Shown here in pieces: positions 15,240-63,820 of a stretch of 64,000 nt of DNA (positions are counted from its first letter, which is position 1; every line of letters begins with the position of its first letter). Source of the stretch: Auriscalpium vulgare (Eukaryota > Basidiomycota > Agaricomycetes > Russulales > Auriscalpiaceae); assembly GCA_019915015.1 (NCBI GenBank), contig JAHBBC010000011.1, positions 1,178,001 through 1,242,000 on the forward strand, written 5' to 3'. The notes beneath the pieces are model-generated. The model saw only the letters and a list, made by a program, of their open reading frames with translations, did no database searches and was not told the DNA's origin. Position numbers and translations under genes: made by a program.

Positions 15240-15577
15240 TCACCGCTGCGATTTTGTCAACTTCAAGGCGTCTGAAGACGGGCACAAGCCCGCTTACCCG
15301 CTCGCAAGATGGCTGCTGATGCGAACGCAGTCACTGGTGAAGTTGAACGTGAAGAAGAAGATACGGCAGATGCCGAGACGCGTTCGCGCGTCGTCAAGAC
15401 AGAGTCGCGATCTCCGAGTCGGACGCGCGTGTCCGCCAGAGTTGGCAGGCCACAGTCACCACCACCCTGCGTTGCAACATTGTGCTGCACTCTATTGTCT
15501 GTTGCGCTTATATTTTCTGCTGCCAGATGTAGCTCGCATGACACCCCTCATCTTCCGCTTTACTCTGACTTCCAACC

Positions 15578-16847: not shown

Positions 16848-17177
16848 CATTAAAGGTTGAGATCTGTACCATCATTGAGATTTGTGCCCATGTATACATT
16901 AATGACTTCAGTCTCGCCATGCCCATACGCGCGGCTGCTCTGATACTTTGCGAACACAAACCACGGCTAAGATCAATAGTACTGGTAGCTACAACCCAGT
17001 CAAATATGTGTCACGGAAGTGGTTGGGGGCTATCAGCGGCACATGTTGGGCAGGGAAATCCAACCTTATGACTGGCTGCTGTCGCTTCGTAAGATCGGAT
17101 GGCAACATGCTTCCGGGAGCATGGCTATCGACACCATCCTGACATTCCCACATGAAAGCCATGCCTCGAAGGCAGTG
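16848..17177. other. Intergenic
   Basis: 3'-to-3' spacer between convergent genes; nothing recognisable. Confidence 0.5.
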
Positions 17178-18445: not shown

Positions 18446-18903
18446 TCTGCCGACCTGTCCTGTGTGCTACGACGGAGGTAAGATCTGTGGTTGGCTCCAA
18501 GCTCACGGAAGTGCTCACTTGTTCCCGAATCATTGGCAGCTATGCGGCTAGGATAGCCGTAGAGCACTAGGCCACTGCCAGGCAGGGCACCTCGTGTGAT
18601 TGGCACAACAAACAACAACACCGTCGAAGCGCTCGGCCGGACGTTGGGATCCTGTGCCTCCTCTGACTCCTGCCTCAGGAAGACTCGCTGATGTACCTCT
18701 AGATGATCACAATTTTCGGCGTGGATATGTAGCGTGATTGTAGTCGTTCAACGACGGCCTGGACGGGAAACATCTCTGCCAAGTGCATCATCAATTGGAA
18801 AGGCACGCAACAAAGAGCAGAAGCAACCAGGTCCGAGTCTAGTACTTTGTACGGAGCAACCAATTATTTGGGTGAAATGAACACGAGCGAGCCTGCAGCA
18901 CCC
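18446..18903. other. Intergenic
   Basis: Upstream region of paralogue 3; no gene, repeat or clear core promoter element seen. Confidence 0.45.
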
Positions 18904-20104: not shown

Positions 20105-20683
20105 CTGCTCGAAGTTTTACGATTGAATGATGCGGAAGGACGGGGAGGACGCGGTCGTAATGTCGGGGCCATGAGACAAGCGAAAATCCTGACAGGAGTG
20201 ATCAAGTCGATACGCTGATGAAGAAGAGCCGTAGATAGGGGCGATCGGATACAAGCAAACAGTGGCCTATCCTATCCAGGATTTGTGTCTGTAGCCGGGA
20301 GGATAGGATAGGAGAGGGAAGAGAGCCCTTGGCTGAAAGCTGCAATGGGTTAGATGGATGTTCGACTAGTTCAACGAGGCTGCTGGTGCTCACCCTGGAC
20401 CGGCGGGACGATATGGGACTCGTCGGTGGAACTTATAGGACGGTCGTAGATCATGTCGGGACCACGATAGTGGCACACAACTAAGCCACTCCTATTTCAT
20501 CACGGTTGCTCCGGCCAACCACTGTAGGAGAACAACATGCAGCTCTATACCAATAGCAAAAACAAATATCTCTGCAATCTGTGTTGACCTGCAGAGATTT
20601 TCCCATTATAAATTCGGTGTTTACTGGACCTTCCCCTTCCTCGTGGCTAGATCGATTAAAAGTGAGAACACATCAACACACAC
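20105..20683. other. Intergenic
   Basis: Contains a short GGATAGGATAGG-type repeat near 20300 and its inverted form CCTATCCTATCC near 20270. No gene seen. Confidence 0.45.
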
Positions 20684-21778
20684 TCAGAAAACAAACTTAC
20701 GCGTCACACCATGAGCCTCTTTCCCCGCATTCGCAACAAGTTCCTTCTCCACCGCTGCCGGCTGCAAGTTATCCGGCAGCGCACCCAAGCCGAGCTGATT
20801 TCCGAACGTCTTGATCGCTTTCACACTGAAGATCGTCCCGAGTACGATGACGCACGCGGCCTGGGCGTCCTGCACGGACAGGGGCGCGACGGTGCCTCCA
20901 GGGCCGTCCGCGAACGAGAGGCGCGCGAGGCCAAGCGGTGCCCAGAAGTCGTAGAAAACCGCGTGCAGATCCGCGAAAAAGGGCTGTGCGTGGGTGAGCG
21001 TCGCGTACATGCCTGCGATGAGCGGACCCGCCCAGAGGTCGACAGCCGCCCAGCCTCCCGGGAGGAACTCGGGTGGGGTGGTGAGCGAGAGCGCGGTAGG
21101 CTTGAGCAGCCCGGTGGCGTTGGCGACGAAGAGGCCCGTGTTCGTCATGAGCTGCGGGTGCGACATGAGTGAAAGATGTTGGAAATGAGGACGGAAAGAC
21201 GAACGGTGGAGGTGAGTAGGAGAGCCCATGGCGAGTTCGCAATTTCTGGCGAGGGGTGTGAGGTGATAATGGTGGGCACGATCTGAGTGAGGAGGAAGCC
21301 GCGGGTAAACGCATCAATAAGGCCGGCCGGGAGCTCCGTGTTGAGGGACAGAGCCGGGACCGTCGAGAACGTGTCAACGAAAACGTGTGCCAGGATGTAC
21401 AGCGTCGGGATCGCGGGTGACACGAAAAACGACGGCGCCTGGCCCAGCCACGGGGCTACGCGCACAAGCACGGAAAAAATGAGCCCAATCAATGCCGTGG
21501 TTGCGGGAGTGCGCACCGATGATTGCCTCGCCGCCATACACGAGCAGCAGCGTCGACGCATACTCGCGCACGAGGCTGCGTGGCTCCGGTTTGGCGGCAC
21601 CGGGTGTTGCGAGATGCTCGGCGAGGAGACTCTCGCGCACCTGGCGCATGACAAGCGCAACACGGAGGGCGCCAAGGACGTCGAGCACGGAGACGGACAC
21701 GCCGACGAGCGCGAGGGCGGGGATCGGGCGCAGACCGTACTCGTAAAATGCGGTCACGGCGGCGAAAATGGAGGCCAT
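20684..21778 (-). CDS. Conserved multipass membrane protein, function unknown
   Basis: Three exons: 21517-21778, 21205-21455 and 20684-21151, with 61- and 53-nt introns; about 326 aa. Hydrophobic segments occur throughout: IFAAVTAFYEYGLRPIPALA, TLLLVYGGEAIIAPWLGQAP, FFVSPAIPTLYILAHVFV, the ..RGFLLTQIVPTIITS stretch, LLTSTLMTNTGLFVANATG, WAGPLIAGMYATLTHAQPFF and AQAACVIVLGTIFSVKAIK. The tail is charged. I recognise no named domain; it looks like a lineage-conserved fungal membrane protein. Reading frame and splice phases are clean. Confidence 0.7.
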
Positions 21779-22410
21779 GATGAGGGGAATTACAGGATGC
21801 TAAGGGTCGCCGTTGTGCTTGGGACGAGGAGGGGAAGTTTTGAAGCGAGCTTATCAGGGCGACGGTGAAGCATTTGAGGTCGAGTGAGCGCTTGACTATA
21901 GACGCGCGAAAAATCACGTGCACAACGCATGCTTGAAGTCTTGAACGGTACTTTCCAAGTAACTGCCGTACACAAGTAGCTGTCTTAGTAAATCTGGGGA
22001 AGAAAGTGGGCTCGTGGAGGTCGGTTACACCTCCACGCGTGCATGTATTAATGATGCGTTCCCAATCGACAGTGTGATGGTCGCGATAATTCAATTACAA
22101 GTGTATCACAAATGATGCTGTAGTCATCGGATGACAGTGCATCCCCGGAAGACGGAAGAGGAGCTATTCGAAAGGATCAACAAAGAATACTTATGCTGGC
22201 AGTCGAGGGCCTGTAAGGAGATTGAGGTCGAGTCGAAAGTCACAAGCAATAAACGCGACAATCAACGACCGAGGCTTTAATTCGTCCTTTTCTTCCATTT
22301 TAGTAATTTATACACGTTTCCTGTCTTTTCTTGGCCCAGCTGTCAGACACAAGCGCGCCGGTTATTAGACGCCCACAACGCGCTCTTCCTCCCACCACCT
22401 TGTGCCAGCG
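21779..22410. other. Divergent promoter region (membrane protein / RAD18)
   Basis: Non-coding, AT-richer. It lies between two divergently transcribed genes. No specific motif assigned. Confidence 0.4.
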
Positions 22411-23962
22411 ATGGGCAAAAACAACGTCCAGGACTTGCTCAACAACGCGGGCATCCAGGATCCTTTTGACTTTTCCCAGAAGATTCTGCAGGATCTTGAC
22501 AGTGCGGTGCGCTGCAAGATCTGCTCTGAATTATATGCCGCGCCTGTCGTGCTCGCGTGCGGCCACTGCTTCTGCTCGCTCGTGCGTGATGCTTGCCGTC
22601 TAGCAATCATCGACGCTGACCATGAGGTTGCGCTGGATAGTGTGCGCGTAGTCAGTTGAGTGAGAAGGAGGCATGTCCGGCGTGTTGGAAACCCGCAACG
22701 GAGGACCAGCTACGCATAAACCCCGCCATGGAAGAGGCTGTCATCGCGTGGAAGGCTGCCCGGTGCGCCCCTACCTCTCCAACTCTCTCTCGTACTTACT
22801 GTTACTTGCATTAGCGCATTCGTCGTCCGCTTGGCCACCGACGACCACATCCGCCAGACGCGTCCACAGACACCCGAGCCCCGACCGACAAAGAAACGTC
22901 GAATGTCACCGGCTTCGGACTCGGACATCGAGATGCTTGAGCAGCCCGCAGCAGGCCCGTCGACGCCGCGCAAACCAACGAAACGCCCCAGCCCGCCAGC
23001 TCAGCCTAAACCAAAGTCAACGGCTCGCTCGCGCAGCTCTGAACCACCAGGTTCGCCATATCGTACTTGCATTCGTTCTGCATAGCTGATACATGTTCTT
23101 CAGTTGACGATAAATTCATTGACTGTCCAGCGTGTGCGCACCGTGTACATATGGACAAGATCAACCAGCACCTTGACAGCGGGTGTAAACTGCCGCCGAG
23201 CACCGTGACGACGAGCGCCAAACAGAAGGACGCATGGTCGAAGATATTTAGCGGGGAGACACGTAAGAAGGGCAAGGACAGGTGGGTTGTAGCACATATT
23301 CAATCAGGCGTACCTCACCCGCGCGGTCATAGGACAGGGGATGATGCGCCACTACCAAAGGTGTCCTACGCCGTGCTCAAGGAAAAGCAGATTCGGGAAC
23401 TTCTAGCAGAACACGACCTCCCGACAACAGGCGAGCGTAGCCTGCTCATTGCGCGACATCAACGGTACGCACTGCGCATCGCCTAATTCATCCTCACCTC
23501 ATCACGTACTGGGATAGATGGATCACGCTCTACAACGCGAACCTCGACCACCACCCGTCACAACGGCGGCGCACCGCAGAACTGCGCACGGAACTGCGCA
23601 AGTGGGAAGATGACCGCAAGGCTATCACGAAGCGGGGCACGGCAAAGGAGGTCGCGCAGGCGGTGAATCTGACACAGCATCAGGTGAACATTAAATTAAT
23701 TCAGCTTTTGTGAAGATGCTCATATACAATGTAGAGAGACAACAAGGCGGAATTCGCCGTTCTCGTAGCCCGCGCGCGTCCGAAGAAGGCGACGGTGGCC
23801 GTGTCGACTTCTTCTGGTCTAGCTGAGCTTGATGCCGACGGTTGTTCTTCACCTCCAGCTGACAAGGAGCACGATTTGGACGCGTCGGACACGCAGGTGG
23901 ATATGATTATTGTGGATCCTGATGCACCCAGGCCAAAGGAATCCGCGATTCTCGTCGAGTAG
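22411..23962 (+). CDS. RAD18: Postreplication repair E3 ubiquitin ligase RAD18
   Basis: Six to seven exons. The N-terminal C3HC4 RING reads CKICSELYAAPVVLACGHCF then CSLC and, across a spliced junction, CPACWKP. After a proline/serine linker with KKRRMSP and PRKPTKRPSPP there is a UBZ4-type zinc finger (CPAC..H..H...C at VDDKFIDCPACAHRVHM) and then a SAP motif (LKEKQIRELLAEHDLPTTGE with RHQRWITLYNANLD), exactly the Rad18 order RING-UBZ-SAP. The C-terminal tail is acidic. Rad18 pairs with the E2 Rad6 to monoubiquitinate PCNA at stalled forks. ATG at 22411 is the first in frame with the RING. Total about 400 aa, normal for fungal Rad18. Confidence 0.92.
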
Positions 23963-24573
23963 CCATAAACGCAGTCGGCATCCCGCGCTTTCGCAGGTGT
24001 GTGGCGCGCGCCGCAAACCCTTTGTACTTATTGGATATCAGGGCCTCCGCCCAATGCACACCGTCTTCTCGGACACGCCCTCGACAATGGCGCCTTTGTC
24101 CCCCGGACCTAAGGCCTGGCTATGTGCGCAATGCCGGAAAATTGCTCGGCTCGCGTCGGCTTGCATTCTGTTGAAGGCACCTGGAAGGCACATCGCGACG
24201 GTCGCGTGGCTTTCTCTCGCCACGCGACGCGTACGCTACCTTTGTTCCGGCGATATGTAAGCGAGGCAACCCGACGCCCGACGCGCGCCCGCTCTTTGCT
24301 GGCGGAGACGAAAGGCCGACATCCCCTGCGGCTTTGTCCCGTACTCCGCGTGCGAAGCGGGAGGCGGTTCCGATGAGCCGTTGGGCTGCGCGCCACTGGC
24401 CACTCCCTTTGTGCAGCTTGGCATCGGTGCCACTGAGGAATGCTTCGCTCTGGGACATATAAGACGGGCGGGACAGCAGCACATTATTGCTAAGGCTCTA
24501 ATTTCCTCTCTCTCTCCATCTGAAACCCTATATCCCATCCGCTCTCACACCCAAATATCTACTGTTGGTTGAC
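23963..24573. other. Intergenic with core promoter
   Basis: GC-rich spacer without a convincing gene; open frames on the minus strand lack family or splice support. Confidence 0.45.
24457..24465 (+). promoter_or_regulatory. Candidate TATA box
   Basis: GGACATATAAGACGG lies about 110 bp before the start codon of the DUF7330 gene at 24574 and is followed by a pyrimidine-rich CTCTCTCTCC leader, the usual fungal promoter layout. Confidence 0.5.
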
Positions 24574-25425
24574 ATGACTCGTTATTTATCTGTTCGTCTC
24601 TTCCCATTGCCACCTGCACAGCAACCGGACTGACCACGTACCGCCCACAGCAACCCAACCCGTCCACGGTGGCGTTCGGCTGCGCCGACACCGACACCGA
24701 CACCACGCACCTCGTCCCCGAGGCGCCCTCCACGCGCCTGTCGTCCGCCAAAAAGGCGAAGGCGCGCCGCCTCCCCCGCCTGCGCCTGCGCCTCCCCGCG
24801 AAGAAGCGCGTGCCCGCGCCGACGCGGCGCATTAGCGAGCAAGTCGTGCCTGTGCCCTCGCGCGGCGTCGGCCCAACGCGCCGCCACGCGGAGATCGTTA
24901 CGCTGCACGAACCGCTCGTGCTTCGGATCTCGTTGCTTAGCCCGTTCCCGGGCGACGCGCCTGAGCCGCTGGCTCGTAGCGGCATCGAGGTGTGGAGCTA
25001 CAAGGGCCGCGTGCGCGCCGAGGTCGTACGTGCTCTCCCATCCCTCCCCAACTATGATCGACACTGACATGCTTATGCTTTTGTAGTTTCGCCTGTGCGG
25101 CGCGGAAAACCACGCGTTCAGACTTGTGGTCATGGCCCGCAACGAGCCCGTCACGATTGTGCTGCCCGCCCACTTCCGCGGCGCGCTCGCAGTCGCGTCG
25201 CACGCGGACGCGTCGCGCCGCCCGCGCGTGTCCTGCGCGCCCGCCGTGCGCCGCGCGCTGCGTCGGGGGGATGTCCACTTCGGCGCTGCGGCCGATACGC
25301 GCGAGGACGAAGTCAAGGTGCAGACGCGCGGGCGTATCACGCTCCTCATGATGAGCGACGAAGGGCTGCCGCGCGAAGAGTGGTTCCGCCGCGAGGCGGG
25401 ATGGTTCTGGCGCCGCCGCGTGTGA
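24574..25425 (+). CDS. DUF7330-domain protein, copy 1
   Basis: Three exons: a 7-nt first coding exon (ATGACTC), a short intron ending CTGCACAG, a long exon and a final exon after a GTACGT...TTTGTAG intron at about 25029. Protein about 230 aa: PTGLTTYRPQQPN, basic linker, LVLRISLLSPFPG, SGIEVWSYKGRVRAEV-FRLCG, then VIMARNEPVTIVLPAHFRG-like strand, RRALRRGDVHFGA, DEVKVQTRGRITLLM and a C-terminal WFRREAGWFWRRRV. The SYKG.V..E, LPxxFRG and TxxGxI strands match basidiomycete DUF7330 proteins, which are of unknown function. The second DUF7330 gene is at 28694. Confidence 0.7.
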
Positions 25426-25835
25426 GCCCCGGAAGCGGGACACTAAATCGAACGCACTGTCGGACTGCCTGCGAATTGGCCGACTCCATTCATTTGTTTG
25501 CTGTATTGTTGACCGTGCGCGTAAGGCGGTTCGCGGGCGAATCGGGCGGGGGCGCGGTTGTCCTTTGCCCTGTCCTTCGCTGAATCGCCGGTAGTTAGTC
25601 ACTGTAGCCATTAGTTATGTAATTACGATAGTTATGAATGATTATGATACGCATGTATCCTTTGGAATATTTGAAGACTCCTGTCCCAGATTCCGACCGG
25701 CAACGGGTCAAACAGTGGCCACGTGACAGCATAACTCATCATCGCGGCCGAGTTGTACCCGAAGTCTTTGACAATGACATGCGAACACTCCCACTGAACA
25801 CCGTCAGCTCATGAAAACGATCTCCCATCATCTAC
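25426..25835. other. Intergenic
   Basis: Nothing recognisable. Confidence 0.45.
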
Positions 25836-27478
25836 ATGGCTCCAGACCACATTCCCTTCGAAATCTGGGCCGCTGTTTTCGCCACCGTCGACGACTCGGC
25901 CACCCTCACCGTGTGCGCTAGGGTCTCCAGTACGTTCTGGGCCGCCGCGGTGCCCTGGCTCTACCGCGAAATTCGTGTGTTGCATCCCGACAGAGGCGCT
26001 GCTGTACGTTGCCGGCTTTTGACCGTTGACCCTGGCTGACCCGCCCGTAGATACGGGGCAATCGCGCGTTTGATGCCGTTGAGGCGCACCCGCGTCTGCG
26101 TGCGTATGTGCGCTCTGTCTACCACGATGGTGCGTTTTCCGCCTCTCGCGCTGCTGACAGTCTCACTAACGAGGCGTGCGCTTTCACGCAGTCATGGACA
26201 TGGTCATCTGGCGCCCGTACATGCGCGTCGCGTACAATGACGACCGCTGGGCACACGCGACGCCCTGGACGTCCTTCCTGCCGCAGCTCCCGAACTTGAC
26301 GTCGTACACGCTCACGGGCGTGTTCCAGGTGTCGCGTCAGCTTGTCGGCGTGGTCGTCGATGTGCTGCGCCAATGTCCAAGCCTCGAGGAGGTGCATTGG
26401 TTGTTCGAGATCCACCCAACGATTGTTCCGCTTATCACACAGCTCAAGACGGTCAAGGAGGTGGAGCTGCAGCATCCGAGTGTGCGCACGCTGGCACTGC
26501 TGGGCCCTGCGATGCAGGAGATTACAAACCTCAAAGGGCTGCATATACGGGTGCGAACGTTGCCGAATCTTGTTAGTGTATGTGCATTAAAATATTCCTG
26601 CAGGTTACGGAGGGATTGCATCTGAGCCCGGCCGAGGGACTGCTACTGGACAGTCAAGATTTGACGGCTTTGACACATCTGACGATCGGGCGTGGACACA
26701 CTATGTCGAGGGATCAGTTACGTGCCTCATTGCGAGGCACGCCAAATCTTGAAGCTCTCGATATATTTTATGACAATTTCTGCCACCAGGTCCGCCCTTT
26801 TACCTCCTGACAGCGTGCTTCATCGAACTGACTCTGTGTTTCCGCACAGGCACACGATTCGCGCTCCTTCAAGGGCCTGTCGCGCCTGCGTCGCCTGACT
26901 GTCCGCCATCAGGGCGTCGGCCTGCCCACCCAGTTCTCCGAGATGTTTTCCTGGATCATGAGCATCGCCACCGGCGCGCCGCTTGAGTACATCGCCATTG
27001 TCTCAGACGATGACCGCAGCTGCAAGTCGGGTACCACCAACACCGACATGGCCTTACGTTACCCCACGCTGCGGACGTTAGATGTTCCGCACGTGCGACT
27101 GCTCTCCCATCAATTCATTGAGATTGTGGAGCACTGCCGACAGATGGAGTACATGTCGTTCTTGCTGGAGACTGGGTCCTACTCTGTAAGCTTTTTTCAC
27201 ATGGCTTTTGCTTCCGGCATTGGGTCTGATGCTGGTCATATGTAGCGCTTTCAGACCCTGGTGCGGCCAGATCATGAATTTGGTAAGTATCTAGAGCTTC
27301 CCGACTTCAGGAAGGCGCCCAAGCACGGAACGTCCGCACGATACCGGCGGGGTGGATAGCAGCGTGCTTTGCTCGCGACGCACGCGGAATATTGCATGCT
27401 TATCCTGGATTTGTCCGGTGCCGTGGCCCGGCCTACCATATAGTTCTCGGACACAAGTTGTGCCGAGTCATGCTCTGA
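25836..27478 (+). CDS. F-box / leucine-rich-repeat-like protein
   Basis: Starts MAPDHIPFEIWAAVFATVDD and continues LTVCARVSSTFWAAAVPWLY, a typical basidiomycete F-box. After that come leucine-patterned strands (LPQLPNLTSYTLTGVF, LRQCPSLEEVHWLFEI, LKTVKEVELQHPSVRTLALL, LTALTHLTIGRGHT, GTPNLEALDIFYDNF, LSRLRRLTVRHQGVG, YPTLRTLDVPHVRLL), so it is LRR-like. About seven exons with introns near 26000, 26130, 26575, 26790, 27187 and 27282. The last exon (about 27352-27478) is inferred from a GTAAGT...GGATAG intron and ends ..HKLCRVML; without that splice the protein would stop near 27357. It is not of the minus-strand F-box family at 6.6-20 kb. Likely SCF adaptor. Confidence 0.7.
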
Positions 27479-27612
27479 AACTTCCGAGTCGACCTGTGGG
27501 TTCAAAGATTTTATCCCACCGGTGCGGCTGCCCCACATGAGCCGACAATTTTTTGTGGTTGTGCATCCACCAGGCGAATCTGCACGGCGTTGTTGCCTGA
27601 TCTAGCAACGCT

Positions 27613-28345
27613 CATCACGCTTCATCAAATCAGCGCAGCGATCCTCCCATCGCTTTTTGATCTGTGTTTCCAGCCGACATTCTGCCAACTGTGGTCTTCT
27701 GCAGGGCCTGCCGTGTTTCTTTGTTCATTCCTACAGAACCTCTGCGCCACTGGATGCCTTCTCGCTCTTCTCGGGTTCGGAATCAATTAGAGGCATCGCA
27801 TGCACAGTTGCGTACGTGCGTGCCTGATGCGACGACCCTAGCCTACTATCTGTGGCAAACGTATTTCGATCTCTACATATGTCGTTGCTTGGATATCGAC
27901 ATCGCCCGGACACAGCCTCATTCGTTCCGTCATTACCCCGCACGCGCCATTCCCCACCCTCCGACTGCACGGTCGCTCACGTCCTCATGCCGACAGCGAC
28001 GTACTCGAGGTACGGACATGTGCTTGGCTACGCGCGCAAGGCAACACAGGCCTGTCTGTTTCCCAAGGCATAGGGCATGCGGCGCAGCAACCTTGCGCCC
28101 GGCATGCATGGTTGACAGGCGGACAAGGCCTGCGGGCTGCATCAGGGCATTGTGCATCCGCCTGCAGCAACGCGCAAGTTCCAAAGAATGGACGTCTCTT
28201 ACTCGGCACAAGACGCTGGGCGGAAATGGAAATGGAACGGGGGCGTGCGCCTCGATGTGCAGAGGACTTCCGGGTCGGGGACAAGCACGGTGGCGTGCCA
28301 GCGCCGTGTCTGTTGAAGTACAAGCGTGCGAGGACGGGGCTACGT
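27613..28345 (+). repeat. 733-bp dispersed repeat, left copy
   Basis: Almost identical, in inverted orientation, to 62976-63706. The only differences I noticed are in homopolymer length (five T against four near 27653). It carries a 237-codon open frame shared by both copies without recognisable domain. No terminal inverted repeat, TG..CA ends or target duplication are evident, so its class is unknown; a truncated transposon or a duplicated segment is likely. Confidence 0.85.
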
Positions 28346-51912: not shown

Positions 51913-53332
51913 TCAGATGTCATCGTCATCCGAGTAGAACTCGTCCTCCTCGTCGTCTGCCAGGCCGAGATTCGTGAAGTCGACCTTGTAGCGCAGCAGC
52001 CCGCCGATCCCGCCGAAGCCCTTCACGAACTGCGCGCCCTCCTGCGAGCGGTTCGTCACGAACTCCAGGTTCGCGCCGAATTCCTTGTACTTTTCCGCGA
52101 ACCACTCGAGCAACGACTGCGGCTCAACGGCTTGCTCCATCTCGAGGCCCGTAGACTTGTCGAGAAACTTTTCGCGATCCTTTTCCTGCTCCTTGTTAAC
52201 GTGCACGACAATTTCCTCTGTGGGAAGACGGTCAATCACCGCGGGAGATCGATGGGACTCTGTATTGCTTACCGCTCGCGGCGTTCCGGAGTACATAGCG
52301 CGTGATGTCGAGGTTTTCCCAGACGATGAGCGTCTCGACGGCGCCCAGATCGAGAGCCTTGAGTGTGTCGTCGATTCCGAAGCAGTATTTCCCCGAGTCC
52401 AAGCTGATTTCGTCGAAATACTTCTGGATGAGTTTCTTCTCCTGCACGAATTTGACGTTGGCGAGGGACTCCGCAGCAAGTTCGATAGCCTATCAAGCGG
52501 GTTCAATTCCATTCATTGACTTCAGTGCACATCACACACCTGATTGAAGCCGTTTTCGCCACCATAGCTCACGTCGACGACCTTGATGACCTTCGCTACC
52601 AAGCGCTGATCGAACATATCGCTTTGACTGAGCTCAGTCTTGAAGTCCGCGCTACCGGCGAGCACGATGCCCGTCACGTTCACCTTGTCGTTCGTGATGA
52701 AGTGCTGCACCGCGTGCTCGGCGACCTTGCGCACGTAGTTGTGGCGCTTCTCGTCGCGGAGACGCGAGAAACGCAGCGCAGACTGTCCACCACGTCCGTG
52801 CTTCTTGGGCAGGTCGACGGTGAACTTGTGGATCACCTCGCGCGTGTTGCCTGAGAGGGTGCCGAAGAGGGTGCCGTTACCGTCCATGACGATGAATCCG
52901 AAGCGCGAGTCTGACTCGAGCAACTCTGAAAGCGCCTCGGTGTGGAATTTGTTGTCGCAAAGATACAAGGATCTGAGAGATGCATCAATTACGAACAGGC
53001 AATGTTTGGCACACGCGGATACGTACGTGTTAATGGGCTTGTGCGGCTCAAAATCAAAAGAGACCTTCTTTTCCTTGCCCTCGTCCGTCAGAATCGTGCC
53101 GACGAAAAGAACAAGACCGTTTGGCGGGACACGGTGATACAATTTGAGGCGCTGCTGGGTGCTGGTGATCGCCGCAAGCACAGAGAGTCGATTCACGCGA
53201 GACTTGATGTTGGACGCGGTTCCATACTCCTGCGTCAACATGGCAGACGCCCGTGAAATTTGATCCTGGACCCACATACAGGTAAGTTCGCAACCCCTTA
53301 CCCCACGCACAAGACACGCACCTTCGGGGGAA

Positions 53333-53334
53333 TA
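53333..53334. other. Target-site duplication TA (left)
   Basis: TA directly before the left inverted repeat, matching TA at 56681-56682. Confidence 0.85.
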
Positions 53335-53401
53335 GGGGAGCTCAGAGTAGACCGTTTTCGTTTCCGTTTCGTTTTCAAACGCCTTTCGTTTTCGATTCGG
53401 C
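53335..53401 (+). repeat. Left terminal inverted repeat (67 bp)
   Basis: Perfect inverted match to 56614-56680 and to the start of the copy at 63821. It consists largely of GTTTTCGTTTCC-like short repeats. Confidence 0.92.
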
Positions 53402-53486
53402 GCCCCGGCGTGATATTACATAATGTCACTCAATCTACGCCGCTGCGCGACACCGCCGCCATTGCTTTCGAGCTCTTCCACCAGCC

Positions 53487-54757
53487 ATGGCCCGTGCTAC
53501 CTACCACGATGAGATTATCGACGCATACATCACATATATGGCTATCCAGATGGCACTCATGCCTCCATCTTCAGCCACAGCTATGATGGAGCAGCTCCAA
53601 CGCGATAGCTCAATCCTTCACACCATCCTATCCTCCGCTACATCAACCCGTCCTCCGTCGTTAAAGCCGGCAATCTCCAGCTTGCATGGGAGTATGCACA
53701 GGATCCTGCCATCACACCGCTTATCAACATGCTCCGTGTCTCTCCCACGTCTTCGACACTATCCTTGGCCTCATCGAGGGTCATCCGTATTCCAGAACAA
53801 CTCGAACACCCCGCAGGAGGATATCCGAACGCAATTGCGGTGACCCTGTACCGTATGGGTCGCTATGGCAATGGCGCATCTCTCGAGGATATCAGCCGTG
53901 CAGCGGGCTGTTCAGGGGCGCTGTCAGCATACACGAGAGATGTAGGAGGCGCTGATGTCCTTGCATGGGATGTTTGTACGGCCGCTAACAGAGGAGGAGA
54001 AAGAGGGTCGAGAAAAAGGTGGATTGATGAGCAGCTTGTTTCAACGGGATCCACTGGAGGGAGGGATGGTGATGTACGACGGGACAATTGTTGTCCTGTA
54101 CAGTCGCCCCGGCCTCGACGGTGACGCGTACTACACAAGGAAGTGCAACTATGGGTTCACGTCCCAGATGCTGGATATCTTCTAATAGCTCCTGACGACA
54201 TATCTGTACACAGATGGCAATACACCGTCGAATCTACGAATCGTTGACTATTCGCTTGGCATGACCGGTTCTGCTCATGATGATCTGGCATTTGAGCATA
54301 CTGCAGCTGTCAAGCATACCGACTGGTTCTTCAGAGGTGACGAGTTTGCATGGGGTGACTCTGCGACCCTGTCAGCTCGCGGACCATCCAGTTCACAAGA
54401 AACCAGCGTCGTAGACCGCTCAAATGCCTATTCGACAAACACGTAGTCGCCTACGCGTCGCTCTGAACACACCATAGATCGGGGGTGCACTCAAGGGCCG
54501 ATGGCAATCCCTTCGTGGGCTTACGGCTCAATATCCGTTACAATAGGACCATATACGAGCGTGTCGGTGGATTTCAGTGCATCATCTTGCACAACGCAGT
54601 GCTCGACATCGACAAGGATGGGGAGAGGGGACAAGCTTTGCGACTTGGCACTCACGTGCAGGAGAGGACGATAGGGGGAGCCAGATGTCCTATAGATGAT
54701 GATATCACAGAGGATGATGATGCGAGGCTAGGAGACGTGGCCTTGTGGCAGAAATAG
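53487..54757 (+). pseudogene. Harbinger-type DDE transposase, several frame breaks
   Basis: Recognisable pieces in changing frames: MARATYHDEIIDAYITYMAI, KAGNLQLAWEYAQDPAITPL, IAVTLYRMGRYGNGASLEDI (helix-turn-helix), KRWIDEQL, then the catalytic region VMYDGTIVVLYSRPGLDGDA-YYTRK (first Asp), LRIVDYSLGMTGSAHDDLAF (second Asp), FFRGDEFAWGDSA, RRSEHTI (Glu) and GALKGRWQSLRGL. All three catalytic acids are seen. At least four switches of frame that short introns do not explain (for example near 53630, 53760, 53915 and 54045) mean no full-length transposase can be read here. It may be inactive, or the sequence may carry single-base errors, since neighbours show the same kind of break. Confidence 0.75.
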
Positions 54758-55161
54758 TAGCCGACTCAACGAGCAGGACTTGTATAATGAACAAGATTAA
54801 ATCTGAGATTGTAAAGAGTAAGAGAGATATAATCAGAAAGAAGAAAGGACTGTGTAGCATTAAATGAGAGGCTGCAGTTAGAAAGGACAAAAGCAAAAGA
54901 TCAGACTAAGCCTCGCTCCAACTCGTCTGGAACCACAGATGATCCTCGTCCAAGATCTCTGTCCAACTGGCTTCATCCCAGGGAGGACTATTTTCTCTTG
55001 CTTGTCATCTCGCTCTCGGGATCATCATCGGAGTGTCGATGCGCGCGGCAGAGATGAAGGTCGTCGATGCAGCGGTTTGACATAGAGCCCGTGCGTGAGA
55101 TGGAACGAGCGGGCGTAGCGGCGGCGACAACCAGAGGAGGATTCTGAAGGCGCGATATATT

Positions 55162-56482
55162 TCACGGAGATCTTTGAAGCTGCAGCTGAAGGTCATCGTC
55201 AAGTGCTTCCGACTTGCGGCGATACTCATCGTTCGTCCACAAGCCAATCTGCAGCTCACGAAAGAGGCGGTCGTGGCGATCGCGAGCGTCTTGGCGAAGA
55301 CTATTCATGTCATCGCGCAGCCTGTCGGACAGCTTGCGGATGTTCTCTCCTTTGACACCGCAAAGCTACGCCTGCCACATGAATTAGTCCACGTGCATTA
55401 CCAACAACTAGTATACTTACTCGATGGACTCCTTCGTATGTCTTGAATGCCGGGCGTGACGTGGGCTTGAAGCGACCTTCAAGCTCTCCAGCTTCTCTCC
55501 GACAGGTGTGCGGGAGTCTTCTTCGCACTTGCTTGCGACGAGGGCGGCACGCGGTTCTCTTTGGGAGTGTGTGGCGTCTGCGGTGGCGATCCCGGGCCGG
55601 GTGCGGTCGCAGAAGAGTCTTGCGCGAGAGGCGCCGGGCCATCGTGAACGCGTAGGACGGGGTCTATGTCCTTTCGCGCGGTTGCCGCACAGGTGGCGCG
55701 TCGTCGGGAGGCTGATAGTGCACTGTGCGGTGACCGTCCGGACCAACCCCAGTCGTGATGATGATCGGGTTTTCATTTGGGCGGGTGGCAAGGATCGCGT
55801 GAATTCGGGGAAGACAGCGAACTCGGCCTCGATCCTCTGCACAGGATGTGTTAGCCTCCAGCGTGCTCATCGGAGATCACAAAATGAACTTACGCCAGAT
55901 ATTCTTGTGGCGTGCATCGGTATCCTCGGATGGGCCATCTGGCCCTATGTAGCAGACCAAATACTCATCTGGACCATCGTCGGCATCACCTGTGTCGACG
56001 ATGGCCTCATTCCAGTGAGGACACCTCCACCCGTGCACTTAATGCGCCGAACCTTGGAGTGATAGGTGATGCGTAGCCTACACAAGCCTGTGAGCACGTA
56101 TGAGGCATCCAATAAGGGTATGGACATACTGATTTATTTCCCGAGCACCTTTGCTCCCAGACTGACGAAATCCGAGTCCGGAGCATCCTTCCAGAGGATG
56201 CGAGCAAGCCGCTGACCCGCTGCGACCTTACTTTCTCCGCTTTTCTTCTGGAAAGATGTCAGTAACAAAGCCCAGATGATGCGTGGGCCACCTGCATACC
56301 TCACCACGCTTGTTACCAAACATAACCTTGCGATTTTGCGGCTGTTCGAGCTCCGTGATGAGCTGCAGGAGCAGCTCATTTGGCTTCTTATTTGTGCCCC
56401 AGCTGATGTTCTCCTCACGGGATTTCTTGCCCGGAGCTGTCTCAGGCTGGTCGGAGTCCGAGCGGCCGCGTTTCCGGGGCAT
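55162..56482 (-). CDS. Harbinger accessory protein (Myb/SANT-like)
   Basis: From the ATG at 56482: MPRKRGRSDSDQPETAPGKK, SREENISWGTNKKPNELLLQ, LITELEQPQNRKVMFGNKRG, after an intron KSGESKVAAGQRLARILWKD-APDSDFVSLGAKVLGK. Further exons carry EAEFAVFPEFTRSLPPAQMK, basic and Pro/Ser-rich stretches, and the end FRELQIGLWTNDEYRRKSEA to LQLQRSP. The W..K...LL..I..L start is the SANT/Myb-like DNA-binding domain that partners Harbinger transposases for nuclear import and end binding. Internal splicing between 55860 and 56150 is only partly resolved. Confidence 0.65.
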
Positions 56483-56613
56483 TAAGAGAGTAGGAGAGTG
56501 TAGATTAAGGAGGTATCGCGAGGGAATGAGTGTGTGAGACACGAAGACGCCGCACAACGCGAGCGTCACCTAAAGTCACACGATTGTCACACATCGGGTC
56601 ACTTATGCCGCGG

Positions 56614-56680
56614 GCCGAATCGAAAACGAAAGGCGTTTGAAAACGAAACGGAAACGAAAACGGTCTACTCTGAGCTCCCC
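56614..56680 (-). repeat. Right terminal inverted repeat (67 bp)
   Basis: Perfect inverted copy of 53335-53401. Confidence 0.92.
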
Positions 56681-56682
56681 TA
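56681..56682. other. Target-site duplication TA (right)
   Basis: Second copy of the duplicated TA; together with 53333-53334 it accounts exactly for the eRF1 reading frame. Confidence 0.85.
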
Positions 56683-57148
56683 ATGATCAGGCTGATCATA
56701 GAAGTTCCAGCTCTGCGTAACACAATAGACACCACGAACAGTCAATCAGTAGGGCGTAGAGGAGTGAGCAGGCGGCACGCACCCCCTGGCAGAGTCAAGG
56801 CTCTTGATGAGCTTCTTGACCTTCCACATCTGGATATTCTGCTCGGCCTGGTCTTGACTCATTTTGTGTGTGTTTCCAGAGACTGGATAAAGGCAGGGTG
56901 CGAGGGCAACCGTCAGCCCGGGGGACGATGAGAGATCAGATCAAGGACGGCGACGAGGGCAGCGATGGGACCAAAACTTCTGACGCGTGGGCTTTAGGGC
57001 CGGTCCTGTGGTGCCTAGGGCTACGGAGATCTGTCTTATCTACAATACTCGTTGGTATCTTCTAGGGGGATCTGGTTATAACGTTACAGTGTCAGTGGCA
57101 CCACCGTCACCCTCTGCCCTCCATCCAATCTACCTATCCTACTTAACC

Positions 57149-57923
57149 ATGCCAGCTGGCCCTCAAAACGCAAGCTCGATGCCGCTGAAGATGGCAACAA
57201 AGCCAAAAAGCTCAAGGAAGCTCGGGGGTAGTTCCAACTGCCAGTGTCCCGGCTCAGGACCTACAAACGTAGACCACGAGGCTCCTCACATCATCCTGCG
57301 GAACACAATCCTCCGACATCCTCCAAAGGCAAGGAAAGAGAAAACACAGAATCCCAGACGTCTAGCGTTTCATCTAGGCCAAGACACAGAGTGAAAAAGC
57401 TCGTGGCCCCGCGCCCCTTCCCCACGGTACCAACCTCTGTGTCCGCCACGGGGCCGCGCTCAGCACACCACGAGGGCAAAAACTACATCGCTGTTACGCG
57501 CAAAACTCCCCTTGGTTCTTATCTACGCCGATGCAAAGACGTGATCCTCAAAGACGGGTACGTCTCACGTCGCGACATCCGTCTGCCCACTAACGCGCCG
57601 CGTTGCAGGTACAAAACGCTGCATCTGAACGCTCTGGGTGCAGCGATCCGCACCTCACGCTCCTAGCCGTCTCGCTGCCGCCCATCCTGCCCTTCGGTCA
57701 AGATGAGATTCGTACAGAGATACGCACTGGCACGGTCGAGGTCGTGGATGAGCTGATCCCGGAGGACGAGGACGAGGACATCAGCTACCGGACGCGGGGC
57801 AAGTCGAGCATGAGCGTGGTCATCACGATCGGCGACGGCGTGGACGAGAAGACGGCAGGCGGGAGCAAGTGGGCACCGAGGGGCAAGCGGCGTCCGCGCG
57901 GCGTGTCGTTCAGGAGGATTTGA
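57149..57923 (+). CDS. POP7: RNase P/MRP subunit Rpp20/POP7 (Alba-like), with frame breaks
   Basis: The core ATGPRSAHHEGKNYIAVTRK, TPLGSYLRRCKDVILKDG, YKTLHLNALGAAI and PHLTLLAVSLPPILPFGQDE, then EIRTGTVEVVDELIPEDEDE, DISYRTRGKSSMSVVITIGD, is a full Rpp20/Pop7 Alba-type domain and tail. Pop7 binds RNase P and MRP RNA together with Pop6 and acts in tRNA and rRNA processing. Two breaks: the basic stretch KRKLDAAEDGNKAKKLKEAR reads in a different frame from the ATG at 57149 (one A short near 57165), and GAAI to PHLTLL needs one more C near 57649. A 30-nt GTAG...CTCAG insert near 57227 is very short for an intron. The gene is certain; whether it is intact is not. Confidence 0.75.
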
Positions 57924-58694
57924 CGGCGATCGAGGCTACGGCGTCTGGCGATGGAGGTGACCGTAACAGCGAGATGGACATGTCGTAGCGTAAGGTGAGA
58001 AATGACCAGCTCGCCGACTCGTTCCCCCTGACGCCAACTGACTTTATTCAATCTGGTATGTACTCTATAGTCAACTCGTGAAGCTGCAGCACCATACGGT
58101 ACGGGGCGTGTCTTGTAGGTCATTGCCTCTCAGTCAGACGTTTTGCGATGTCGAGGATATATTTCGGATGAGATTATCTCAATCAAGGATGTGGAAGAAG
58201 GATGGATGGGACTCCCCTGTAATCGATGTTCCCGCTGCCAGCTGTACCAGCGAAATACAAGCAGAGCGCAAAGCCGGACGGCAGGCAGAGCTACAAGCCC
58301 AAAATATACTCATCATTCGGACTACTCATGACCATCCCTGCGACGCATCTCCTATCCTACTTCAACATCACTGCCAGAGCTCGAGCCTGTCTGGAACCGG
58401 ATATACTCGCTCGAGCCAGAGCGGCAGCGTTTCTCGCTCGATCCCGAGGTCAGGACGAAGTCAAAGGGCGTCGCTAAATGAAGATAGGAGAGTACACACT
58501 GTCTTGCTTTATATAAAGTTCGTCTGTCATACGACCACCCTGAGGTCAGAAAGATATTGGATTGCCACCGACACTCCGGGCCGGTGTGAGGCCGGTGGGC
58601 CAGACTGCGTTATGGAAGCCATATAAGCCAGCCTCGAGTCGCCATCGTCCACATCGGAACATCCACTGGCACCCCCACTGGTGCTGAGTACAGT
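57924..58694. other. Unassigned interval
   Basis: Contains open plus frames around 58143-58477 (GYISDEIISIKDVEEGWMG, faintly SH3-like) with possible introns, but no coherent spliced product could be built. Function not assigned. Confidence 0.35.
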
Positions 58695-59309
58695 ATGCCG
58701 TCCTCGTCCTTGAAACGAACGTGCAGGTGCGATCGATCCACTGCGCTCCGATGCGTACGCGTGATTCATGTTGCCCGCAGCTTCCAAACACGAAGCAGTT
58801 TGTAACCTCGTTTTCGAAGGTTAGTCCAGTTAGCCAGCTTGGTCAGGACTTCATGGAGATGTACCTCTTTAGCTCGCCGCGGCGACGCTGAGCAAACGGA
58901 GAAGTACATCACGGTGTCGTACCGCTACAACGAATTCTTGTCCTGGGAAGGGACCTTCGATCCTGCGTTCCTTCTCACCGTCGTGAGTTCTGCTACTTCT
59001 GACTCTCAAGACAGACCACTCACTCTCATGCTAGACAAGCCTCGACAATATCTCCCCACAGCTAAATGACGGTTATAGCAAGACTTTCTTTGAGTTCTTC
59101 GAGAAGGAGCTGCATGTCCCAGGCACCAGGGGTTATATGTTGGTCGCACATCCCCGCCGAGGTCATGTACTGACTCTTGCTACAGCACATTCTTCGACCC
59201 TGGAAGAGCTAACTAGGGATGTCTGTCCTCGGACTCCTCCTAGAACCTAATTTGACCCTGTTGTAGGCACGAAGCGACGACATTCGCGACGATCTTCGGG
59301 AGCAAGTGA
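58695..59309 (+). CDS. MIF-like tautomerase, with apparent single-base deletions
   Basis: Exon pieces give VLVLETNVQ, QFVTSFSK, LAAATLSK, EKYITVSYRYNEFLSWEGTF, DPAFLLTV, TSLDNISPQLNDGYSKTFFE, FFEKELHVPGTRGY, ITFFDPGRAN and the end ATTFATIFGSK, the order of macrophage-migration-inhibitory-factor-type tautomerases. The proline after Met needed for catalysis would be present if one C is missing after ATGCC (58699). Further one-base losses are needed near 58897 (AAACGG, expected AAACCGG) and near 59213 (AACTAG, expected AACCTAG). So the protein family is clear, but this sequence does not encode it in one frame. Pseudogene or consensus errors. Confidence 0.65.
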
Positions 59310-59474
59310 TGAAATGAAATGGAAGATGTTCAGCAGATTATACGCGGGTGTATGACAAGGCTCTATGCTACATTGCAATGGAATTTCGATGGCGCGATGG
59401 GATATTGCGCGAATGATGTCAGTCGCAGACCACCGCTTACTATGCGGCCATGCCGCCGCTCTTGGTGCCCTCGG

Positions 59475-60353
59475 TCAACGATGCCACCGCAGTATACTGC
59501 TGACACAGACGCAGTATACATAAGACAGTGACAAAACCCTGCACAGAACGCGGCTCTGCATTATGAACAGAACGACGTTAATTACCAGGGAACGTTGAGA
59601 TGGACTTTCACTCACCGAGGGGCATGGTATTAGACAATGTGCTGTCTCCGTCTTGAGCGACACGAAACGATACGGGGCCCATCTCTTGCGATCCCAGCTG
59701 TCAGGTGCGGCGACCTCTAGGTGCCCGCCAAGCAGACGCGATTCCACCACCAGGGCAGCCCCTTCTGCAAGCCGTACCGCCTTCGCACTCACACAACTCC
59801 GCTGCAGCGCTTGCTCGTACACGCGGCCGAGCTCACCGCACAGTTTCATGACGGTGATCATCCTGAGCGCCGCGTACCGCGCCGTACCAGGTCGACTTCG
59901 TGCGAACTCGTGCACAAGCCCTATGTCGATTTCGATGTGGGCTGGGCGCTGGGCCTCGCCATCGCGTGGTAGAGAGATGGCGATAGAGGGTAGGGAGAGA
60001 GCGAAGCGCATGAATTGCTTGATATGCTCGGCTTTGGACACGCTGTTGGCTTCGACATCGACGTTGCCCATAGTGGTAGGAAAGAAGGCCATGCGCAGGT
60101 CGTCGTTTATCCACAATGCCGCGCGCAGATCCTCTGCGAGTTGGATGAAATCGTTTGGGGCTGACAGAGTCATAGTGAACGGCTTTCCCTGCACATGGGT
60201 GTGAGCACATTCGACAGAGAGCCTCTTTAGGCATAAATGTACCGGAATGGCAGTCGAAGAGATATGGCAACGAGGCTCAAGCGGCTGACAGTCAGCCGCC
60301 GACGATGGGTGGTTGACAGGAGCCTCTGGGGATGACTGCTTCTGAGGGGACAT
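59475..60353 (-). CDS. Hypothetical protein
   Basis: Open reading from ATG 60353: MSPQKQSSPEAPVNHPSSAA, IPVHLCLKRLSVECAHTHVQ, FTMTLSAPNDFIQLAEDLRA, LWINDDLRMAFFPTTMGNVD, IEIDIGLVHEFARSRPGTAR, LRMITVMKLCGELGRVYEQA, LVVESRLLGGHLEVAAPDSW. Good coding texture over about 240 codons. The true end is probably spliced: a GTGAGT donor follows CLIPCPS near 59615, and the remaining ORF looks non-coding. No family recognised. Confidence 0.55.
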   Translation of the reverse strand: MSPQKQSSPEAPVNHPSSAADCQPLEPRCHISSTAIPVHLCLKRLSVECAHTHVQGKPFTMTLSAPNDFIQLAEDLRAALWINDDLRMAFFPTTMGNVDVEANSVSKAEHIKQFMRFALSLPSIAISLPRDGEAQRPAHIEIDIGLVHEFARSRPGTARYAALRMITVMKLCGELGRVYEQALQRSCVSAKAVRLAEGAALVVESRLLGGHLEVAAPDSWDRKRWAPYRFVSLKTETAHCLIPCPSVSESPSQRSLVINVVLFIMQSRVLCRVLSLSYVYCVCVSSILRWHR

Positions 60354-60666
60354 GGTGGCTGGTCGATACCGGGGAGACAGAAGGAGCTTTCAAGGGCGTG
60401 TAATTTTGTCAAGAAAATGCCCGTGAATGGAGAAGCTGAATGGGAGTGGAGAGTGTTAACGCCAAGATGACTGGGTCAGGAATGAAACTGTGATAGATGA
60501 CAAAAGCCTTAGTCGATAATGAAATGGCCGGTAAGTGCATGCGCAGAATACGTCCAAGTGGAGGTTGGGACAGCCTCACCGTGGTGCGGTAGGCATGCAT
60601 ATGTCATATCTAAGCCTCCTTGCATTTCGAGAAATACAGTCGGGGTGGTATGAGGATACAGCATCA
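60354..60666. other. Intergenic
   Basis: Nothing recognisable. Confidence 0.45.
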
Positions 60667-61602
60667 CTATAAGTCGAAATCCGAATCCGAATCGTCGTCT
60701 TTCTTGGCCGCGTTACGCACATTCTTCGTTGTGTGGTTCGTGGAGGTCGATTTGGACCGCGGATGATCGTCATCGTCGCTTTCTTCGCCAGAGTCATCTT
60801 CGGACTTCTTCGGAGGCAGCTGGTCAGCTGGGATGATCGCACCTGACACTATGAGAAGAGCCTCGAGCTCTGCTCAAATTCAGTCGTGGCGGCGCATAAA
60901 TGAGAGACAACTTGCCTTCCTGTTTGCGCTCTCGATCGGCCCCCCACGAGGTTATTTGCGTAACGATCTCACCCTTGCGGTAGACGATGAACATGGGGAC
61001 CCGGGTGTCAGGCAGGTTGGGGATACACTTGTCCCCAACGATGGATGCAAATTTCGTGCGCGGGTGTTTGGCTGCCAGAGCGCGCACATGAACAAACGCA
61101 CGATCACTGCGCGGAATGCTGCAGACTTGTCAGACAGACGTCGAGAAGTAGCACGCTAGCGGTGCGCACCCGTCCTTGTAGAGGAAACACACGACGCCAG
61201 TGCCCAGCTCCTTGTCATCTCCGGCTCATTCGCACTACTCGCCTCCGTGACCTCCCTCGTGTAGTCTTCTCGCGATATCGGGAGGATGGTACCAAATCGC
61301 CCGCGCTTCTCCTCTGCCTTCATCTGCGCGAGCAGGCGCTGCCGGTACTCCACGATGTAGCGTTCCGCGTCGGCATCCTGCACATCGTCTCCAATTTCCT
61401 GGAGCTCAGATGGCGAATAGCCCTCTAAGAGGTCGTCAAATGTCGGTGATGGTGGAGGTGAGGGCGAAGGGGGTGTCGCCTCGCGTGGAGGGAGGATGCC
61501 GTGCTTGCGGAGCGCGTCGTTGCTGCGCTGGACGTTCGCGATGATATCTCACTGGAATGTAACGACTTACAATTCGGTGTCTTCGTTAGGGTTGATGGCC
61601 AT
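60667..61602 (-). CDS. PLP2: Phosducin-like protein PLP2 (chaperonin cofactor)
   Basis: From ATG 61602: MAINPNEDTE, then ANVQRSNDALRKHGILPPRE, PPSPTFDDLLEGYSPSELQE, DADAERYIVEYRQRLLAQMK, RFGTILPISREDYTREVTEA, followed by the thioredoxin-like domain (ELGTGVVCFLYKDG, HVRALAAKHPRTKFASIVGD, CIPNLPDTRVPMFIVYRKGE, IVTQITSWGADRERK) and an acidic end (DSGEESDDDDH, KDDDSDSDFDL). Phosducin-like proteins of this class assist CCT-dependent folding of actin and tubulin; PLP2 is essential in yeast. The first intron is unclear: only about 20 nt separate the donor after DTE and the next coding stretch, another possible small deletion. Confidence 0.88.
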
Positions 61603-61969
61603 GGTACAAGTACAATGTGTCCTGTCGCAGAAAATGTGTGGATGTTGTCACTGCGGGCTGCGGTACATAGTAGTGCTCAGGCTGTGGCGCAGAAATTCGC
61701 AACATAGTAGTAGATCCAATCATGGACTGATAGATATATGATCTAATCTAGAAGACATCGTTCACCAGGCCACCACTGTATCATAAAAGTTGCGCTCACA
61801 GTGCAACGCGCGCGGCTACGGTACGAAGTGCATCGGTCGGTTGCTTTCATTTGGCAGCTTTCACTGCGCGAGCATTGATCACACCAATTGACGTATATTT
61901 ATCTGTGGTCTCAGCTGCAGCGTCTTGACCCAGCTTCGACTCGCAGCTACGCTCCTCTGCCGCTGTCAG
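61603..61969. other. Intergenic
   Basis: Non-coding, AT-richer; upstream region of PLP2. Nothing else seen. Confidence 0.45.
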
Positions 61970-62868
61970 CTACAAATCTACAACCTTTCCTGCATCATAC
62001 TGTTCTTGTCCCTCCCTATAACCCCTCTGGTTCGCATACACCCTCACGCCATTCTTCTCAAAATCGCAACACCAGTGTGTATGCCCGAACGCCCACAGCT
62101 TGATCTTCCCACTCTCCCAGCACTGTGCTGCAGTCAGTTCCGTCGCAAACGCCGAGTTTGTGGGCCCATCGCTGAACTTTGGGTCACCCGTTCCGTCCTT
62201 TGTGGGTGCATGGTGAGTGAACACCACGATCTCTCTGTCTGGCTCGTCACGGGCGATCGAAGAAACGGTCGAGTTGAGCCATAAGAGGTCGGCATTGTGA
62301 AGGGCGGAATATGTCTTGGGGTTGAAACCGTCGATGAGGCGGAAGTCGGTGAGCGACCAAGAAAGGATATCGAGATCGTTCGGATTTAATGACGACCAGA
62401 GCGTGCATCCTAGGATGGTGAGAGTCGATGAAACGTCGTAACGCGTGCGATTGAGATAGACGAAGTTTCCAAGGGACGCATCGGCGTTGACTCTGGTAGC
62501 GAAGGCCATCACGGCCTCGGACGACTCTTGCTAAAATACAAAAGCCACGCATCATGAGACAATCCATGTAGAAAAGCCAACAGCTTCCACACACAATTGT
62601 CGACCTGTAAGGTTCTGAGGGAAGTATGTGAGTCGACGATATTAGGATGTGTGGCGAAGTACACACCGTGATTTCCGGACACGAGAAAAACTGTCTTGAA
62701 AAGCTTGAGCTGGCATTGGAGCCATTCAAAGAACCTGTCATCCACGGTCCACCCAATGTCTCCGAGAAGAGCAAGTTGTTCTGCGCGAACTGGAACGTCG
62801 TACTGATAGAACTCGCTACCGGGCCGCTCAATCTCAAGATGGAGGTCGCTAAGGATTTGAATCTGCAT
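61970..62868 (-). CDS. Calcineurin-like metallophosphoesterase
   Basis: MQIQILSDLHLEIERPGSEF (DxH metal motif), ALLGDIGWTVDDRFFEWLQC (GD), VFLVSGNH (GNH), then after two introns QESSEAVMAFATRVNADASL, LGCTLWSSLNPND, REIVVFTHHAPTKDGTG (H), and IKLWAFGHTHWCCDF (GHTH), ending ANQRGYREGQEQYD. All the metal-binding motifs of the calcineurin-like superfamily are in order. About 260 aa. Substrate cannot be told. The 3' end is clean (VVDL, stop at 61970). Confidence 0.88.
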
Positions 62869-62975
62869 AACTAGTAGGATGGTGGGGAAAGATCAACAGC
62901 ACGATATCGTGGTTGACTGAGAAAGAACAATAAACAGTGGATTCAGGTTTGGCGAAACCGATGATGGAACCGCGA

Positions 62976-63706
62976 CGTAGCCCCGTCCTCGCACGCTTGT
63001 ACTTCAACAGACACGGCGCTGGCACGCCACCGTGCTTGTCCCCGACCCGGAAGTCCTCTGCACATCGAGGCGCACGCCCCCGTTCCATTTCCATTTCCGC
63101 CCAGCGTCTTGTGCCGAGTAAGAGACGTCCATTCTTTGGAACTTGCGCGTTGCTGCAGGCGGATGCACAATGCCCTGATGCAGCCCGCAGGCCTTGTCCG
63201 CCTGTCAACCATGCATGCCGGGCGCAAGGTTGCTGCGCCGCATGCCCTATGCCTTGGGAAACAGACAGGCCTGTGTTGCCTTGCGCGCGTAGCCAAGCAC
63301 ATGTCCGTACCTCGAGTACGTCGCTGTCGGCATGAGGACGTGAGCGACCGTGCAGTCGGAGGGTGGGGAATGGCGCGTGCGGGGTAATGACGGAACGAAT
63401 GAGGCTGTGTCCGGGCGATGTCGATATCCAAGCAACGACATATGTAGAGATCGAAATACGTTTGCCACAGATAGTAGGCTAGGGTCGTCGCATCAGGCAC
63501 GCACGTACGCAACTGTGCATGCGATGCCTCTAATTGATTCCGAACCCGAGAAGAGCGAGAAGGCATCCAGTGGCGCAGAGGTTCTGTAGGAATGAACAAA
63601 GAAACACGGCAGGCCCTGCAGAAGACCACAGTTGGCAGAATGTCGGCTGGAAACACAGATCAAAAGCGATGGGAGGATCGCTGCGCTGATTTGATGAAGC
63701 GTGATG
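62976..63706 (-). repeat. 733-bp dispersed repeat, right copy (inverted)
   Basis: Inverted near-identical copy of 27613-28345. Flanking sequences differ on both sides, so these are the repeat limits. Its outer end lies 114 bp from the transposon copy at 63821. Confidence 0.85.
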
Positions 63707-63820
63707 CTCAGTAAAAACGCGAAGTCGGCCGCCAGTCCTGTATGGAGGCGTAGGTCATCCTCTAGTCCAACAATGGGCCGAAATAGTCCGCTGCTGTCAG
63801 AACACCCTATATACGTAATA

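Follow-up and report, generated by a model that had tools for sequence, protein, structure and literature searches.

A Transposon Interrupts Exon 2 of the eRF1 Gene

We analyzed a stretch of 64,000 nt from the basidiomycete Auriscalpium vulgare (positions 1178001-1242000 of contig JAHBBC010000011.1, here C11), which is part of an assembly of 51.6 Mb in 96 contigs (GCA_019915015.1). The whole stretch is called the window in the following, and coordinates refer to it unless a contig is named. The minus strand harbors the gene for release factor eRF1 (51913-56862), with the start codon beginning at 56862 and the stop codon at 51913-51915. Its exon borders were transferred from an intact version of the gene on another contig, C72, which splices to 437 amino acids. 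By these borders exon 2 extends from the last base of codon 27 to codon 40 and spans 53322-56712, the same coordinates as in an initial annotation made from the letters of the window. That annotation had proposed a DNA transposon within this coding exon, and this was borne out. An element that fits the Pangu type of the PIF/Harbinger superfamily occupies positions 53334-56681 on the plus strand. It has a length of 3,348 bp here and of 3,388 bp in a copy on C72 and in many other copies.

The ends of the element are formed by inverted repeats at 53333-53401 and 56614-56682, which comprise 69 nt including a shared edge base, are 100% complementary and cannot be lengthened either outward or inward. 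We assigned the edge base to a target-site duplication AAT, with the left copy at 53331-53333 and the right copy at 56682-56684. Therefore, each arm of the terminal inverted repeat has 68 nt (53334-53401 on the plus strand, beginning with AGGGGAGCTC, and 56614-56681 on the minus strand). The initial annotation was right about the perfect repeats and gave the arm as 67 nt.

The same annotation had assumed a TA duplication, and this candidate was ruled out. Removal of the element together with one AAT results in SLIIPPK, i.e., GTSMISLIIPPKDQISR, as in solved eRF1 structures. Removal together with one TA, which was thought to restore the conserved protein, leads to SLIIIPPK with one extra isoleucine. 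An empty site on C72 also requires AAT, and the flanks of the element family, of which 31 of 34 copies with paired ends have matching 3-bp flanks, likewise speak against TA. The case shows that the protein and the empty site, rather than the repeat edge, have to be used to define the duplication. A perfect 68-nt inverted repeat that coincides with a duplication and an exact empty site cannot reasonably be put down to chance.

The insertion point lies after codon 37 of eRF1, an ATT that, on the gene strand, corresponds to the duplicated triplet. The start codon and the first 37 codons are separated from the remainder of the gene by 3,348 bp, and the motifs NIKS, YLCDNKF (YxCxxxF) and GGQ are all located on the far side of the element, in agreement with the initial annotation. 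Translation from the start codon yields 37 eRF1 codons and then element sequence up to a stop codon at 56505-56507 (frame 56505-56741). Since this frame ends within the element, we expect the interrupted version to be null.

An Intact eRF1 Version Is Present on Contig C72

An exact empty site is present on contig C72 (56,797 bp), where AAT occurs once, at C72 53758-53760. The eRF1 gene of this contig has five introns of 50-70 nt and splices to the complete protein of 437 amino acids without a stop. Residues 5-435 align to the solved eRF1 chain 4d5n, and the matches to 4d5n and 1dt9 both have an E value of about 7e-212. The match is full-length and includes NIKS, YxCxxxF and GGQ. In searches of the assembly, a 733-bp query from the locus as well as a query of 145 amino acids from one eRF1 exon matched on C11 and C72 only, and no third eRF1 copy was found with this single exon as query.

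The initial annotation had regarded the allele as null unless another copy or a second nucleus exists, and had advised searching the genome for a second eRF1. The uninterrupted full-length gene on C72, which lies within colinear flanks, fits this prediction. Because the assembly contains this version, the essential gene is not missing, and any reading with an organism lacking eRF1 is unsupported.

Contigs C11 and C72 Are Colinear on Both Sides of a Replaced Segment

C72 is colinear with both ends of the region 6494-59712 of the window and differs in an inner segment. C72 1-1641 matches window 6494-8138 in the same orientation (99.7%) and was found at no third place in the assembly. C72 28043-53760 matches 27613-53333 with 99.93% identity (12 mismatches and 7 gap openings in 25.7 kb), and C72 53758-56797 matches 56682-59712 with 99.0% identity (3 mismatches and 24 gap openings in 3.0 kb). 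All three matches keep one order and orientation. The segments between the first and the second match (window 8139-27612 and C72 1642-28042) do not match each other. The segment in the window gave a kinase and weak, below-cut-off F-box-like matches. The segment on C72 is at least partly multi-copy and gave tnp2 transposase, EST1-type and fungal-kinase matches. A mating-type locus was considered as a possible cause of the divergence; a scan of 8 of the 30 frames of at least 200 codons in the divergent segment revealed no homeodomain or receptor match.

No second full-length place in the assembly was found for window 17200-20200, for window 59713-62974 (with a partial match of 91% on C4) or for the left flanks of element insertions on C5 and C3. 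Such single-place flanks, together with the single place of 17200-20200, are expected if the assembly has collapsed most of the genome and keeps C72 as an alternative path of local extent. With its colinear flanks, differing inner segment and intact eRF1 gene, C72 has the appearance of a second path through a region with structural heterozygosity.

The Interrupted Path Most Likely Contains Consensus Errors

The element in the window is 40 bp shorter than the copy on C72. In one alignment of the two copies 61 bases were missing from the window, 21 were extra and 4 were substituted. Another alignment gave 56 missing and 16 extra bases and 41 substitutions, mostly in runs beside gaps. The differences in this second alignment are confined to 53634-56136. 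Nearly all differences between the two copies are single-base gaps, and both ends of the element are perfect. In the flank at 56682-59712 bases are lacking as well, 17 on the side of the window and 8 on the side of C72. Gap openings against C72 amount to about 0.3 per kb in 27613-53333; the values are about 8 per kb in 56682-59712 and, for the element itself, about 26 per kb. A gene adjoining eRF1 reads open over 374 codons on C72 and is fragmented in the window; the differences in 56682-59712 are probably errors of the assembly and as such would mislead gene prediction.

Since real decay would lead mostly to substitutions, the frameshifts and gaps of the window copy are most likely uncorrected consensus errors of the assembly. 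An old, decayed element was ruled out by the restricted position of the differences, their single-base nature, the perfect ends and the shortage of bases also in the flank. The broken transposase frame in the window is, therefore, no evidence of a dead element.

Coding Capacity and Classification of the Element

The transposase gene is located on the plus strand within the approximate limits 53487-54780. It has two exons and a 49-nt intron, as inferred from the C72 copy, and its frame is broken in the window. In the C72 copy the two exons read open and encode 424 residues. Exon 2 matches DDE_Tnp_4 (PF13359, E value 3.1e-22), and exon 1 alone showed no Pfam match above the cut-off. We found 269 relatives of the transposase at an E value of 0.001 or better. 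Among the 120 matches listed, the top relative is from Agrocybe pediades (62% identical, with 92% of the query aligned), and others are from Mycena, Peniophora and further genera. Together with the short introns, these genera would fit a mushroom-forming basidiomycete. The opposite strand contains reading frames within about 54900-56485, perhaps a second gene; none of the four tested had a Pfam match above the cut-off.

The DDE_Tnp_4 transposase and the 3-bp duplication are shared with canonical PIF/Harbinger elements. The target of the latter is TWA, whereas the element described here mostly duplicates AWT, and TAA or TTA occurred in none of the 34 copies with paired ends. It also differs in that its opposite-strand frames gave no Myb/SANT match.

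Pangu is a member of the PHIS superfamily (PIF/Harbinger, ISL2EU and Spy) and occurs in three basidiomycetes among others; in the description by Han and colleagues, the group has A-N-T duplications, ends usually beginning with AG or GG, an average length of about 3,487 bp and a DDE transposase, and most autonomous candidates have a second frame that lacks a known motif (PMC4482050). The inverted repeats reported there measure 11-40 bp over 34 families, a range that is descriptive rather than defining (PMC4482050). Pangu has been equated with Harbinger2 of Repbase (PMC12730594). The element agrees with these features in its A-N-T duplication (29 of 34 copies with paired ends), in its ends, which begin with AG (AGGGG), in its length of 3,348 or 3,388 bp and in having a DDE transposase. 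Its further frames, without Pfam match above the cut-off, are perhaps one gene, which would then correspond to the second frame of the group. The element deviates by inverted repeats of 68 nt, by single ATC and ATA duplications in the family and by the formation of head-to-tail arrays, which the consulted passages of the Pangu description do not mention. PHISTA elements are likewise fungal relatives of Harbinger and produce TA duplications (PMC12730594). For the element here, the empty site and the eRF1 frame need AAT. Duplications, AG ends, size and DDE_Tnp_4 match, set against the description of the group, fit an assignment to the Pangu (Harbinger2) group of PIF/Harbinger.

Near-Identical Copies Make Up the Element Family

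The family has at least 40 copies, as a 147-bp query from the left end gave 40 full-length matches of 100% identity; this number is a lower bound, with 40 of 250 candidates scored. For comparison, the C72 copy (C72 21487-24874, 3,388 bp) was used as reference. Besides the eRF1 copy, 40 rows of 1.5-2.7 kb each were aligned, namely the left ends of 37 copies and 3 right ends of those copies. All rows together contained two substitutions, and 37 of the 40 rows lacked zero to four bases relative to the reference. The outliers were C3:485292 (10 missing, 5 extra), C4:643890 (13 missing) and C9:910496 (62 missing). The near-identity of the copies points either to a very recent expansion or to copies made alike by assembly polishing.

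Flanks were compared for 34 copies with paired ends; 13 further single ends could not be paired and are not included. Identical 3-bp flanks were present in 31 copies (AAT in 19, ATT in 10, ATC and ATA in one each), and the A(A/T)T form accounted for 29 of the 34.

An Insertion in One Version of eRF1, Probably Complemented by the Other

In the scenario that we propose, one eRF1 version received a copy of the recently multiplied Pangu-type (Harbinger2) element, which presumably transposed by cut-and-paste and inserted at an AAT in exon 2. The insertion duplicated the AAT and would have rendered this version null, and the intact version on C72 would supply the release factor. We consider this scenario as a whole quite probable; the insertion, its AAT duplication, the empty site, the intact second version and the near-identical copies were observed directly. 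The apparent paradox of a broken essential gene is resolved in this way, by an interrupted version beside an intact one. From the assembled contigs we infer that C11 and C72 are alleles (in the nuclei of a dikaryon, in homologues or in a mixed culture) rather than paralogues.

Several points weigh against this scenario. Allelism is deduced from assembled sequence, and the large replaced segment (window 8139-27612 versus C72 1642-28042) exceeds the usual difference of a simple allelic pair. The gap density over 53634-59712 suggests that the path with the element is supported by few reads. Regarding the family, 3 of the 34 copies with paired ends have mismatched flanks, and the duplications of two (ATC and ATA) depart from the A-N-T form. 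Empty sites of other insertions were sought with three left flanks and none was demonstrated, as two flanks have a single place in the assembly and the third is a local repeat.

C11 and C72 could instead be paralogous segments of one haploid genome, with the interrupted copy as a recently duplicated pseudogene and C72 as the working gene. The presence of eRF1 at two places in one assembly, the large structural difference and the inverted recurrence of part of the shared segment at 62975-63819 would be in line with this. However, C72 has only 56.8 kb and begins and ends within sequence colinear with C11, as an alternative path of an assembly graph would, and just 12 mismatches in 25.7 kb separate the two. 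We regard paralogy as improbable.

Slightly less credit is due to the view that the window path is not a stable haplotype, the insertion having either originated in the sequenced culture as a minor variant or resulted from wrong joining through a repeat. The increase of gap openings from 27613-53333 to 56682-59712 and to the element itself and the 374-codon frame that is open on C72 and broken in the window are in favor of it. Nevertheless, one would not expect wrong joining to produce a 3-bp duplication and then to continue with the exact next base of the same exon, and the clean AAT at the junctions and the exact empty site make an assembly chimera, which the initial annotation had considered, an unlikely source of the insertion. 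The 12 mismatches across 27613-53333 also weigh against this view and mark C11 and C72 as distinct and not as one sequence with and without the element. That the interrupted version still yields some eRF1, by splicing out of the element or by a start within it, is very improbable: inserted transposons can be spliced out in other organisms and NIKS, YLCDNKF and GGQ all lie downstream, but the introns of the gene have 50-70 nt compared to 3.35 kb of the element, and the frame from the start codon ends inside it.

A transposon insertion in one of two eRF1 versions remains the preferred explanation. As an event, the insertion into one version of a gene is ordinary, and it is notable for its target and for the recent activity of the family. 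Its many near-identical copies and open transposase make the family a promising candidate for an active Pangu-type element in a basidiomycete. Should the two versions reside in different nuclei, the sheltering of a recessive lethal by the partner nucleus would be directly testable. More speculatively, an active autonomous Pangu-type transposon might be spreading and re-inserting into its own 3-bp duplications to form head-to-tail arrays, similar to tandem dimers of bacterial IS elements, and the eRF1 insertion might be a lethal hit sheltered by the partner nucleus of a dikaryon. Searches of literature titles for transposons in eRF1, for insertions into essential genes in heterokaryons and for recent Harbinger activity in basidiomycetes gave none on point among the titles listed, and the print record is possibly wider. 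The same holds for titles on tandem arrays of Pangu-type elements. A search of a plasmid collection gave no match.

Arrays and Composite Copies of the Element

Head-to-tail arrays with about 3 bp between neighbors were observed at four places, and the copies have the same orientation within each array. The bases between the copies were read in the arrays on C11 and C2. In a three-copy array at C11:1130394-1140562, both spacers as well as both outer flanks are AAT. Judged from coordinates, 3 bp also separate the copies in two pairs on C1 (1001398-1008175 and 1058797-1065565), and the outer flanks of each pair match (ATT and AAT, respectively). In a pair on C2 (about 2353065-2359839) the copies are separated by AATT (4 bp), and the far copy is without the usual terminal bases. 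Two copies on C7 with 6 bp between them are convergent, and each has its own duplication.

Window 62975-63819 matches C72 28775-27930 in inverted orientation, and the larger part of this C72 sequence also corresponds to window 27613-28345. The inverted match in the window directly adjoins a further copy of the element starting at 63820, the flanks of which are mismatched (AAT and ATT).

On C72, positions 21487-27929 form a foldback composite, in which the full element is joined to an inverted truncated copy. The arms comprise 3,057 nt with 331 nt between them, and ATT is present on both outer sides. The internal junction of this composite recurs near the end of C1 (near 4310089).

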